A stretch of DNA of 64,000 nt. Source: Amycolatopsis nigrescens CSC17Ta-90. Lineage in GTDB: Bacteria; Actinomycetota; Actinomycetes; Mycobacteriales; Pseudonocardiaceae. How positions within the stretch are numbered: the stretch's first letter is position 1; each line of letters starts with the position of its first letter. Below are positions 29,919-36,763 of the stretch, one piece after another. The notes beneath the pieces are model-generated. The model was not told the origin of the DNA and made no database searches. It saw nothing but the letters and a program-made list of their open reading frames with translations. Position numbers and translations under genes: made by a program. The DNA is taken from positions 2,365,746 through 2,429,745 of the forward strand of contig NZ_ARVW01000001.1 in NCBI RefSeq assembly GCF_000384315.1, in the 5' to 3' direction.

Positions 29919-31250
29919 ATGAGTCATCCCACTCACCCGGCGGGCGATTCCGCCAGGGTGACCGCCGGTGAGCCGTTGGGCACCAGGATCCGGCGGCTGC
30001 GCATGGCGCGCGGCTGGACCCAGCGCGAGCTGGCCGAACCGCGGTACGACCGCGGTTTCCTGGCGAAGGTGGAGTCCGGGCAGCGCTCGCCGTCCGAGGC
30101 CGCACTGGGCTACCTGGCCGAACGGCTCGGGCTGGCCGCGGAGGATCTGCGCTTCGGCCGTCCGCCGGGGCTCGCCAGGCAGTTGTGGGACGAGCTCGAC
30201 GACGCCTACCGGCTGCTCGAACAGGGTGGCCTCGATCAGGCGGAAATACGTTTTTCACGAGCAGAAGTAAGCGCCGCGTATTTTCACCTGCCGGATATCG
30301 AATGTTATGCCCGGTTCTGCCTCGCCGAGACGCGCTGGCAGCGTTTCGACATCGCCGGCGCGACGACCGGTTTCGAGCACGCCGAGCGGATCGCCGCGGA
30401 CGCCCCGCCGTGGCTGCGCGCGATGATCGTGCACCGCTGGTCCGCCTGCCAGTACCTGGCCGGTTCGGTGACCACCGCGGTCGCGCACGTCGAAGCCGCC
30501 CTCGGCGAACTGCGCGCCGGGGACGAAGTGGACCCGGACGCCGAACTCGCGCTGCTCACCGCGTTGATCCATCCGCTGGTCGAGATGGGCGACCTTCGCC
30601 GGGCGCGCCGGGCAACCGAACACGGGCAGCGGGTCGCGGCCTCCGCCACCCGGGTGGACTTCGTCGCCAGGTTCCACCGCCAGGCCACCCAGCTCTGGCA
30701 GGCGATCGGCCGGACCGACCGGGCGGACGCCGAGGTCACCGAGGCGCTCCGGCTGTTCGGCTCGCTCGGCTTCGAGCGCGACGCGGCGCGCTGCCGCTGG
30801 GCGCGGGGGTTCCTGCTGCGCGAGTCGGGCCGGCTGGCCGAGGCCCGCGCGGAACTGGCCGCCGCCAGGGACACCCTCGCCGAGGTTGACTCGCGAGAAG
30901 GGGTCATCGGCAGCACGGTCGAACTGGCCGAGGTGTGCCGCCGGCTCGGCGCGCTGGACGAGGCGGAAGCCCTGGTCAGGGACATCCATCCGCTGCTGCG
31001 CGGCACCGCCGACCTGGAGTCGAGGGTGGAGGCCGACCGGCTGCTCGGGCTGATCGCGCAGGCGCGGGGCGACCTGCCCGGCGCCGAGCGGCTGCTGCGG
31101 CGGGCGGCCGGCGAACAGGAACGCGCGGCACTGCGCGCTGGCCTCGTGACCACCTCGCTGCATCTCGGAAATGTGCTTCGTACGCAGGGAAAAGCGGACG
31201 AGGCGATCGAGGCGTACCTACTTGGGGTGCGGGCCGCAGGGCGGCCCTGA
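29919..31250 (+). CDS. HTH (XRE)-TPR transcriptional regulator, first of two bracketing secreted peptidases
   Basis: 443 residues. XRE HTH at about 21-76 (LGTRIRRLRMARGWTQRELA, VESGQRSPSEAALGYLAERL), then an all-helical region to the C-terminus in which TPR-like pairs recur (LAETRWQRFDIAGATTGFEH; LGNVLRTQGKADEAIEAYLL). The architecture matches regulators that read signal peptides with their TPRs (RRNPP type) and also general actinobacterial XRE-TPR proteins. It precedes the M4 metalloprotease gene by 176 bases on the same strand and is paralogous to the gene at 35392. Base composition dips to A/T-rich at 30240-30310. Confidence 0.86.
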   Translation: MSHPTHPAGDSARVTAGEPLGTRIRRLRMARGWTQRELAEPRYDRGFLAKVESGQRSPSEAALGYLAERLGLAAEDLRFGRPPGLARQLWDELDDAYRLLEQGGLDQAEIRFSRAEVSAAYFHLPDIECYARFCLAETRWQRFDIAGATTGFEHAERIAADAPPWLRAMIVHRWSACQYLAGSVTTAVAHVEAALGELRAGDEVDPDAELALLTALIHPLVEMGDLRRARRATEHGQRVAASATRVDFVARFHRQATQLWQAIGRTDRADAEVTEALRLFGSLGFERDAARCRWARGFLLRESGRLAEARAELAAARDTLAEVDSREGVIGSTVELAEVCRRLGALDEAEALVRDIHPLLRGTADLESRVEADRLLGLIAQARGDLPGAERLLRRAAGEQERAALRAGLVTTSLHLGNVLRTQGKADEAIEAYLLGVRAAGRP

Positions 31251-31426
31251 CTAGGCCGAATGGTCAATTGACGTAGGCCGCTCGCCGTTCTTTACTCAGA
31301 TGCGTCTATTGCAATAACTCCTGTTATCACCTTAGACACATTTTTCCGGTAACCCTCCCTGCGATCGACGTCCCTGCCCTGTCTCCTGCCGCCGGTCGCA
31401 CGGTTCCCCCTGGAAGGAAAACCTTG
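31251..31426 (+). promoter_or_regulatory. Leader/promoter region of the secreted M4 protease gene
   Basis: This 176-bp, relatively A/T-rich gap contains a perfect palindrome GTCAATTGAC (31263-31272), a -35-like TTGACG overlapping it, and an inverted repeat ATAAC-n4-GTTAT (31314-31327). GGAAGGA ends about 11 bases before the protease ATG. A pheromone-type short secreted ORF was looked for on both strands here and not found. The palindrome is a candidate site for a neighbouring HTH-TPR protein. Confidence 0.5.
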
Positions 31427-35379
<3,953 letters not shown>

Positions 35380-35391
35380 CGGAGGCGTCCC

Positions 35392-36672
35392 GTGCGGGAG
35401 CTGAGTTCGAGCCCCGCACGGGAGCCGGTCGGCGCCCGGCTGCGCAGGCTGCGCACCGAGCGCGAGCTGACCCAGCGGGCGCTGGCCGAGCCGCACTACA
35501 CCGCCGCCTATGTGTCCTCTGTGGAGAGTGGCAGGCGGATGCCGTCGGGAGACGCGGTGGCGCATTTCGCCGACCGGCTCGGCCTCGATCCCAACGAGTT
35601 GCGCACGGGTCGTTCACCCCGGCAGGTGGTGTGGCTCGACCTCACGCTGGCCGAAGCCGCCCAGGGCGTGCTGGGCGGCGTCGAAGGCGCTGAGGACCGG
35701 TTGCGCGCGGTGCTCGCGGAGGCCGACCGGCTCGGCCAGGCGCGACAGTCCGGGCTGGCCAGGCTCTGGCTGGCCGGCCTCGCCACCGGCGACGACCGGG
35801 CGCGTTACGTCAAGGAAGCCGAATCCGCGCTGGCCGGGGACACCGCGCTGAACCGCGCGCTGGCCGTGCCGAGCCGGGCCGCGCTGCTGATCGAAGCCGG
35901 TGAGCCGCACTACGCGGTGCATCTGCTCCAAGCCTGTCACGACGAGTTGGTGCGCGACGGCTATCCCGACCCCGGCACGCTGCTCTCGCTGCGGGCGCAC
36001 CTCGCCGACGGCCAGCTCCGGCTCGGCAACCTCGAACGCGCGGGCGAGTACGCGGCACTCGCGCTCGGCGTCGCCAGGCTCGACTCCACCGGTCTCACCG
36101 AACTCACCGGGCACTACCTGAGCCTGTGCCGCACCCAGCTGGCTGCCGGCGCGGTCGGCCAGGCCGCCGTTGCCGCCGCACAGGCCATCGACGCGCTGCA
36201 CGAGCGGGCCCTGCGTCCGGCGCTGGCCCGCTGCCTCGAAGCCCGCGCCAGGGCACGGCGTCGCACCGGCGACCCGCGCGGCGCGCTCACCGACCTGCTC
36301 ACCGCGCGGGACGTCGCCCCGGCGGACCGGGCCGTCACCGTGCAGCTGGCCGAGGTCAACCGCGAACTCGGCGCGCACCACGCGGCCGCGGACCTGCTCG
36401 CCGAAGCGCTGCGCGAGATCCCGGCCGACGACCCGCTGGCCGCCGCCGTCCGCTACGAACTCGGCGCCCTCGCGTCCGCGCGCGGCGAGTTCCCCAAGGC
36501 GGAGAAGCATTTGCGGGCCGCGATCGACCTGGCCGTCCAACTGGACGCCCGCGAAACCCTCGCCAACGCGCTCGAACTGGCCGGCGGACTGCTTCGTACG
36601 CAGGGACGTCTCGACGACGCGGCGGATCTTCTCCGCGACGGCCTCCTCTCCCTCGGCGCAGCTCCCCACTAA
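35392..36672 (+). CDS. HTH (XRE)-TPR transcriptional regulator, second of the pair
   Basis: 426 residues. HTH at about 9-65 (PVGARLRRLRTERELTQRAL, VESGRRMPSGDAVAHFADRL) and TPR-like helices to the end (LGNLERAGEYAALALGVARL; ELAGGLLRTQGRLDDAADLL). GTG at 35392 has GGAGG 6 bases upstream and lies 12 bases after the aminopeptidase stop, so it is co-transcribed with that gene. Paralogous to the regulator at 29919, with the same HTH-TPR plan and a similar C-terminal repeat. A feedback role on the peptidase genes is inferred from position only. Confidence 0.86.
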   Translation: MRELSSSPAREPVGARLRRLRTERELTQRALAEPHYTAAYVSSVESGRRMPSGDAVAHFADRLGLDPNELRTGRSPRQVVWLDLTLAEAAQGVLGGVEGAEDRLRAVLAEADRLGQARQSGLARLWLAGLATGDDRARYVKEAESALAGDTALNRALAVPSRAALLIEAGEPHYAVHLLQACHDELVRDGYPDPGTLLSLRAHLADGQLRLGNLERAGEYAALALGVARLDSTGLTELTGHYLSLCRTQLAAGAVGQAAVAAAQAIDALHERALRPALARCLEARARARRRTGDPRGALTDLLTARDVAPADRAVTVQLAEVNRELGAHHAAADLLAEALREIPADDPLAAAVRYELGALASARGEFPKAEKHLRAAIDLAVQLDARETLANALELAGGLLRTQGRLDDAADLLRDGLLSLGAAPH

Positions 36673-36686
36673 ACCGCCCCCCGACA

Positions 36687-36752
36687 GGCAAATAGCCGAC
36701 TTTTTGCCCCTCTCGCGTCGCCGCCATAAGGGCAAAAAGTCGGCTATTTGCC
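36687..36752. repeat. Family-B palindrome, perfect 23-bp stem with 20-base loop
   Basis: Arms at 36687-36709 and 36730-36752 are identical in sequence to those at 23886-23941; only the loop differs. It lies between the convergent HTH-TPR and dapE genes, downstream of both stops, and should end transcription from either side. Confidence 0.85.
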
Positions 36753-36763
36753 GGGCTAGGGGG

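Follow-up and report, generated by a model that had tools for sequence, protein, structure and literature searches.

The window analysed here is a stretch of 64,000 nucleotides from Amycolatopsis nigrescens CSC17Ta-90 (contig NZ_ARVW01000001.1, positions 2,365,746 to 2,429,745), within which two paralogous regulators, R1 and R2, enclose the genes for a secreted M4 protease and a secreted M28 aminopeptidase. Our main subject is this regulator pair together with a promoter and dyad-symmetric element that lies between R1 and the M4 gene (Table 1). The initial annotation of the window had reported four genes on one strand, and we confirm both this arrangement and the gaps between them: 176 bp (31251-31426), 86 bp (33692-33777) and 12 bp (35380-35391).

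Table 1. Positions in the window of the regulator and peptidase genes and of the associated DNA elements
Feature	Position	Strand	Evidence
R1, XRE-type HTH and nine predicted TPR pairs, 443 aa	29919..31250	+	Pfam; AlphaFold model, mean pLDDT 94.3
-35 box TTGACG of the M4 promoter	31268..31273	+	47/47 R1-M4 gaps; 17/19 regulator-less M4 loci
-10 box TTTACT, 17-bp spacer	31291..31296	+	Gap alignment
Left outer dyad arm GTCTA	31304..31308	+	Arms complementary through changes; RNA fold
Inner dyad ATAAC-TCCT-GTTAT, proposed R1/R2 operator	31314..31327	+	47/47 gaps; genome-wide scans
Right outer dyad arm TAGAC	31333..31337	+	Arms complementary through changes
Secreted M4 (thermolysin-type) protease, propeptide and C-terminal P-domain	31427..33691	+	Pfam
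Perfect 15-bp hairpin between M4 and M28	33707..33742 (arms 33707-33721, 33728-33742)		Inverted-repeat match
Secreted M28 aminopeptidase, C-terminal P-domain	33778..35379	+	Pfam
R2, XRE-type HTH and TPR, R1 paralogue, 426 aa	35392..36672	+	Pfam; model, mean pLDDT 93.0
Long inverted repeat after R2	36677..36762 (arms 36677-36717, 36722-36762)		83% complementary

Both regulators have an N-terminal helix-turn-helix (HTH) domain of the HTH_31/HTH_3 type above the Pfam cut-off of 27 bits (HTH_31 at 8.5e-9 and 36 bits in R1, and at 6.9e-12 and 45.9 bits in R2), which places them among XRE-type HTH proteins, and both have tetratricopeptide repeats (TPRs; TPR_12 at 1.2e-7 and 2.2e-7, respectively). 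The start codon of R1 is ambiguous in alignment over about 15 codons at most. With R1 as the query, only R1 and R2 (32% identity) were found at E ≤ 1e-3 in their own 9.11 Mb genome, and we assign the two to separate old clades; the nearest named R1, among the 7995 candidates with the most shared words that were scored, is that of A. anabasis (74%). The M4 protein is of the thermolysin type, with FTP, Peptidase_M4 (1.6e-32; 113.4 bits, cut-off 22.4), Peptidase_M4_C (8.1e-33; 114.1 bits, cut-off 24.4) and P_proprotein domains, and with a PepSY domain that falls slightly below the Pfam cut-off. The M28 protein has the domain of an M28 aminopeptidase (Peptidase_M28, 1e-44; 153 bits, cut-off 21.3) and P_proprotein; its activity is predicted.

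Conservation of the locus within Amycolatopsis

We searched 80 genomes of the genus, counting R1 at 60% identity or more, and derived gene layouts by tblastn on the DNA of the window and 47 further R1 loci. R1 is present in 48 of the 80 genomes and is accompanied by R2 in all 48; an M4 gene (a remnant in one, G056) directly follows R1 at 47 of the 48 loci. Wherever LOG-family genes fall within the stretch, they flank the locus on one side, with dapE/dapD on the other. The layout R1-M4-M28-R2 is found at four loci (the window, L088, L089 and L090), R1-M4-M28-GH18-R2 at 17, and the same without M28 at one; R1-M4a-R2 followed by M4b and M28 is found at 23 (four ending at the edge of the contig or stretch, including G056 with its M4a remnant), R1-M4a-R2-M28-GH18 at two, and R1-R2-GH18, with neither M4 nor M28, at one (G067). 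The GH18 product is an endo-H-like glycosidase (by Pfam, with a weak NCBIfam match). An APH-type kinase gene (Pfam) was seen after R2 in L069 (L069:11461-12345), and eight such frames, which cluster by BLAST, occupy this place in L069 and seven similar loci.

The dapE site was inspected in 31 of the 32 genomes that lack this R1 (G074 was left out). An M4 gene without regulators occupies it in 15, an M4 pseudogene in one (G010), and the remaining genomes have no M4 there; with four more regulator-less M4 loci elsewhere (in G001, G011 and G058, and the second of G009), 19 such loci are known in 18 genomes. The M4 protease, in other words, occurs independently of the regulators, whereas the regulators almost never occur without the protease. 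The initial annotation proposed that the regulators and the peptidases belong together as one system, and the constancy with which M4 follows R1 and R2 accompanies R1 bears this out; regulators found widely without peptidases, the outcome named beforehand as telling against the proposal, did not occur in the genus. The four-gene order itself is real, being found exactly at four loci of the genus and in Rhizocola hellebori, but other layouts predominate and the set is wider than was proposed: GH18, a further M4, or a protease of the S53 or alpha-lytic kind may join it.

A promoter and dyad element in the R1-M4 gap

The R1-M4 gaps share a common block, consisting of TTGAC, a spacer of 17-18 bp after the hexamer, TTTACT, and a dyad 17-20 bp further on. 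ATAAC-N4-GTTAT is present in all 47 gaps (46 distinct elements), where it starts 46-49 bp from the start of the -35 box and 23-26 bp from the start of the -10 box. Its five inner pairs are invariant in all 46 distinct elements; the outer arms (of GTCC/GGAC type, and GTCTA/TAGAC in the window) are mostly still complementary despite changes. At the locus of G067, which has no M4, the dyad is located in the R1-R2 gap, and at that of G004 the promoter-dyad unit is doubled in tandem. At the 19 regulator-less M4 loci TTGAC-TTTACT is kept in 17 and the dyad in none, and the M4b promoters of the large clade (22 inspected) have a degraded dyad, commonly CATACC-N4-GTTAG. The regulator site originally suggested at 31263-31272 did not hold: most of it is taken up by the -35 box, and relatives do not preserve its palindrome. 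The dyad that they do preserve is the one at 31314-31327.

On a genome-wide basis the element is close to unique. Exact ATAACN4GTTAT occurs as a single site, at the locus, in 43 of the 48 R1 genomes and as two sites in five (both at the locus in G004; one elsewhere in G000, G015, G050 and G066), and the 32 genomes without R1 have 17 exact sites in total. The composite TTGACN39-46TAACN4GTTA has 52 matches in 50 of the 80 genomes, 49 of them at the 48 R1 loci (the reversed composite, used as a control, has four). One match in G004 falls just in front of a second M4 gene, which is on a different contig with neither R1 nor R2 nearby, and this promoter is likely a target in trans; the matches in G021 and G028 come without this -10 box and look like chance.

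Other sequences recur upstream of these genes. At the regulator-less M4 loci of G001 and G011 (L114 and L115) a different upstream palindrome, of GAAGTTAT-N-ATAACTTC type, replaces the TTTACT promoter. Many M4 promoters, regulators present or not, have a CCTACGAAAGT-like motif and a GGYCCRTTCRGC-like block upstream, and we read these as a second, shared control. Boxes within two mismatches of the DasR site TGGTCTAGACCA (a consensus taken from the available text of PMC4398421) recur in the M28-GH18, M4-GH18 and R1-M4 gaps of related loci and in L254, among a total of 194 matches in 1.49 Mb, 35 of them inside LogB coding DNA; they offer a lead towards control of the exoenzymes by N-acetylglucosamine (GlcNAc).

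Regulator pairs at other protease families

Outside the genus, R1 relatives have about 40% identity in Micromonosporaceae and about 35% in Streptomyces. The best 80 of 447 confirmed stretches from GTDB genomes were retained, and R1-R2 tandems were seen in Micromonospora, Dactylosporangium, Hamadaea, Amorphoplanes, a Catenulispora metagenome-assembled genome (MAG) and Kutzneria. A secreted protease, either M4/M28 or alpha-lytic type, is near the pair at 10 of the 12 non-Amycolatopsis loci with readable flanks (for L175, L176 and L183, the M4/alpha-lytic genes were identified via tblastn or from just a part of the set). In M. qiuiae an alpha-lytic-type protease with CBM5/12 directly follows R2, and in three Dactylosporangium such a gene is divergent from R1; in Hamadaea an M4 with CBM5/12 is convergent with the pair (no M28 domain was detected there by Pfam), and in Amorphoplanes M28, M4 and an alpha-lytic protease are all near it. 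Rhizocola hellebori (L184) has the order R1-M4-M28-R2; its M4 and M28 domains lie in one frame of 1169 aa (L184:1440-4946), an apparent protease-aminopeptidase fusion. A divergent R2/R1 pair (about 39%) is also present in two Amycolatopsis genomes, G046 and G068, where R1 is directly followed by an S53 (pro-kumamolisin) gene; the G046 contig is common with A. saalfeldensis L185.

TTGAC promoters and dyads also precede these S53, alpha-lytic and other non-window proteases. For 11 chosen promoters (M4, S53 and alpha-lytic), the best dyad match covers 8-10 of 10 positions, and the distance from TTGAC to the dyad is 43-48 bp in ten, the exception being Hamadaea at 30 bp. Dinucleotide shuffles (1000 per promoter) equalled the match 60 and 39 times for two Micromonospora promoters and at most 10 times for each of the other nine. 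A scan of 12 outside genomes for the composite returned five matches in five genomes, each at the promoter of the protease that accompanies R1-R2 (in three Dactylosporangium, Amorphoplanes and Rhizocola; one match for the reversed control). Because these promoters had been inspected beforehand, the scan adds genome-wide uniqueness only.

A model for control of the protease promoter

We consider it likely that R1 and R2, as a conserved pair of transcription factors, serve a single promoter locally, the one of the adjacent secreted-protease gene, by acting at the dyad; that one or both of them act through the dyad in some way is highly probable. R1 and/or R2 would bind the TAAC-N4-GTTA dyad, which begins some 17 bp beyond the -10 box (approximately +12 to +25 if transcription starts about 7 nt past that box). 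A dyad just past the -10 box is in a classic position for repression, and binding there would repress the protease promoter; judging from dyad position, action mainly by repression is reasonably likely. Release by a ligand is the natural next step, given the TPR solenoid on each regulator: a small ligand occupying the TPR groove would free the promoter, the most plausible candidate being an oligopeptide taken up from outside as a signal of external protein, and basal protease and aminopeptidase activity would yield further ligand. A peptide is plausible because an endoprotease and an aminopeptidase adjoin the regulators, and we put the chance that the ligand is one at a little under even; nothing in our data bears out the initial proposal that the peptidases make or destroy this ligand. 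The order in the window (M4, a 15-bp hairpin, M28, 12 bp, R2) suggests that M4-M28-R2 may be partly co-transcribed, with R2 as a feedback arm. More tentatively, and with the odds somewhat against it, the locus might represent a portable actinomycete module for protease control, in which an old R1-R2 repressor pair and a position-locked TAAC-N4-GTTA operator were fitted to M4, S53 and alpha-lytic proteases and would sense the proteases' own peptide products, giving product feedback without a pheromone gene.

Several observations weigh against the pair acting on these promoters as we propose. Genomes of one genus are not independent. No protease was found near the pair in the readable flanks of the Catenulispora MAG and Kutzneria, and no dyad element was found for Kutzneria; the alpha-lytic genes of Micromonospora okii, MW-13 and M. 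rubida lie at least 2 kb downstream, with an AraC-type gene in between in the one inspected. The Micromonospora and S53 dyad sites are imperfect, the Hamadaea spacing is short, and seven of the 12 outside genomes have no exact composite match. Finally, the dyad also folds well as RNA in Amycolatopsis and in one Dactylosporangium (z from -3.4 to -6.0).

The alternative that survives best leaves the promoter as it is and changes the ligand: what R1 and R2 sense would be an amino acid, a protein partner, or a sugar, for instance GlcNAc or a piece of a glycan. The CBM5/12 domains of the alpha-lytic proteases fit this, but the outside pairs accompany three protease families (sugar enzymes were not searched for there), and we regard a non-peptide ligand as unlikely.

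Strict quorum sensing of the RRNPP kind is improbable; in it, R1/R2 would read a dedicated pheromone that is secreted and taken up again, its gene lying elsewhere or having been missed, and would then activate the protease gene in the manner of NprR. The criteria given in the accessible part of PMC10075063 are a receptor of 250-500 aa, TPRs, and a directly adjacent gene for a propeptide of 10-100 aa, which is exported and matured into the signal for the receptor. R1 and R2 are of the right size (443 and 426 aa) and both have TPRs, by TPR_12 above the cut-off and by models that are helical TPR solenoids. No small secretion-type open reading frame recurs in the 47 R1-M4 gaps, the only gaps tested across relatives, and none is recognisable in that of the window, as the initial annotation had also found; we therefore do not class the pair as RRNPP. 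A minus-strand GTG frame through the dyad (31320-31360) is found at the same place in 43 of the 47 gaps (15 codons in most of those listed); it has no secretion-type start and most likely exists only because the palindrome is conserved. The initial view that XRE-HTH plus TPR is the plan of an RRNPP receptor stands in part: the solenoid of R1 is complete and resembles Rap, NprR and AimR, but MalT domain III and eukaryotic TPR proteins are at least as close to its fold as Rap is, so that the fold does not single out peptide sensing. The dyad past the -10 box is, moreover, not in the usual position for an activator.

The dyad might instead be a hairpin in the 5' leader RNA that protects or attenuates the protease mRNA, its co-occurrence with R1/R2 reflecting shared locus ancestry. 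Three Amycolatopsis elements fold with z of -4.8 (window), -4.1 and -6.0 and one from Dactylosporangium with -3.4, and the outer arms retain pairing through changes, with G-U at one position. Yet the inner arms are invariant rather than covarying, the Rhizocola, S53 and Amorphoplanes elements reach only -0.7 to -1.9 with the inner dyad at the same distance, the dyad also precedes the unlinked M4 of G004, and there is no Rfam match above the gathering score. What the elements have in common is the sequence of the inner dyad, a finding in favour of a site in DNA, and the RNA explanation is improbable. That unrelated regulators persist by chance beside the proteases of an ordinary exoenzyme island is very improbable: locus content does vary (GH18, GH9, DUF3152, a second M4) and M4 occurs without regulators, but across several genera the pair is found next to proteases of three unrelated families, and promoter and dyad keep the same spatial arrangement.

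Other features of the locus

The hairpin between M4 and M28 is possibly an attenuator, or a terminator without a U-run, and the inverted repeat after R2 is likely a terminator that separates R2 from the convergent dapE. The C-terminal tails of M4 and M28 (an Ig-like stretch and P-domain, at about 33040-33691 and 34730-35379) are 82% identical to each other in the window's genome and at most 75% and 77% identical to their counterparts in 11 other compared loci; those of L088 (G004) are likewise closer to each other than to counterparts, which suggests gene conversion between neighbours.

Comparison with known systems

In a literature that mostly excludes subscription papers, searched by title and the opening of the abstract, we found no paper on such a system. 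The likeness to the sensor of MalT (domain III), an ATP-dependent LuxR-type activator, is in fold only, R1 having instead an N-terminal XRE-type HTH. Streptomyces has single R1-like XRE-TPR proteins (about 35% identity to R1). At 54 such loci (L199-L252) an M64 peptidase gene lies within 700 bp in 19 and within 2.5 kb in five more, an M20 gene lies within 700 bp in eight, and neither is near in 22; these loci have no R2 partner, no match to M4 or M28 and no [AT]TAACN4GTTA[AT] dyad. Ten neighbours sampled at loci with neither peptidase nearby, or at similar ones, include MMPL, NPP1, LytR-CpsA-Psr and SARP-type proteins, among others. The link of R1-like regulators to peptidases may thus be wider than this locus. 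The XRE-DUF397 pairs of Streptomyces cluster-situated regulators also combine an XRE protein with a partner, which according to the available part of PMC10364602 is a small DUF397 protein, whereas the partner here is a full XRE-TPR paralogue.

The system most similar in parts and logic is NprR-NprX of the Bacillus cereus group, an RRNPP system. Here, however, no adjacent propeptide gene was found, there are two paralogous regulators, the site follows the -10 box, the phylum is different, and each genome has one main target, as against at least 41 genes for NprR (PMC5641580, in the portion available). According to the same text NprR activates when bound to its peptide; here the place of the dyad after the -10 box points to repression, in which the pair would differ from the NprR precedent put forward initially. 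Peptide-reading TPR regulators are presented, in the accessible part of PMC10075063, as a matter of the Bacillota.

What we take to be new is a promoter-dyad element that by sequence is present at every R1-M4 gap and reused at unrelated proteases, and whose dyad is absent at the 19 regulator-less M4 loci. To our knowledge, little is understood of what leads soil actinomycetes to produce secreted proteases, which are costly. A regulator pair, a 14-bp site and a target that is essentially single in each genome open the sensing of external protein to direct tests, and natural contrasts are at hand in M4 promoters with and without the dyad and in the same dyad before unrelated proteases.
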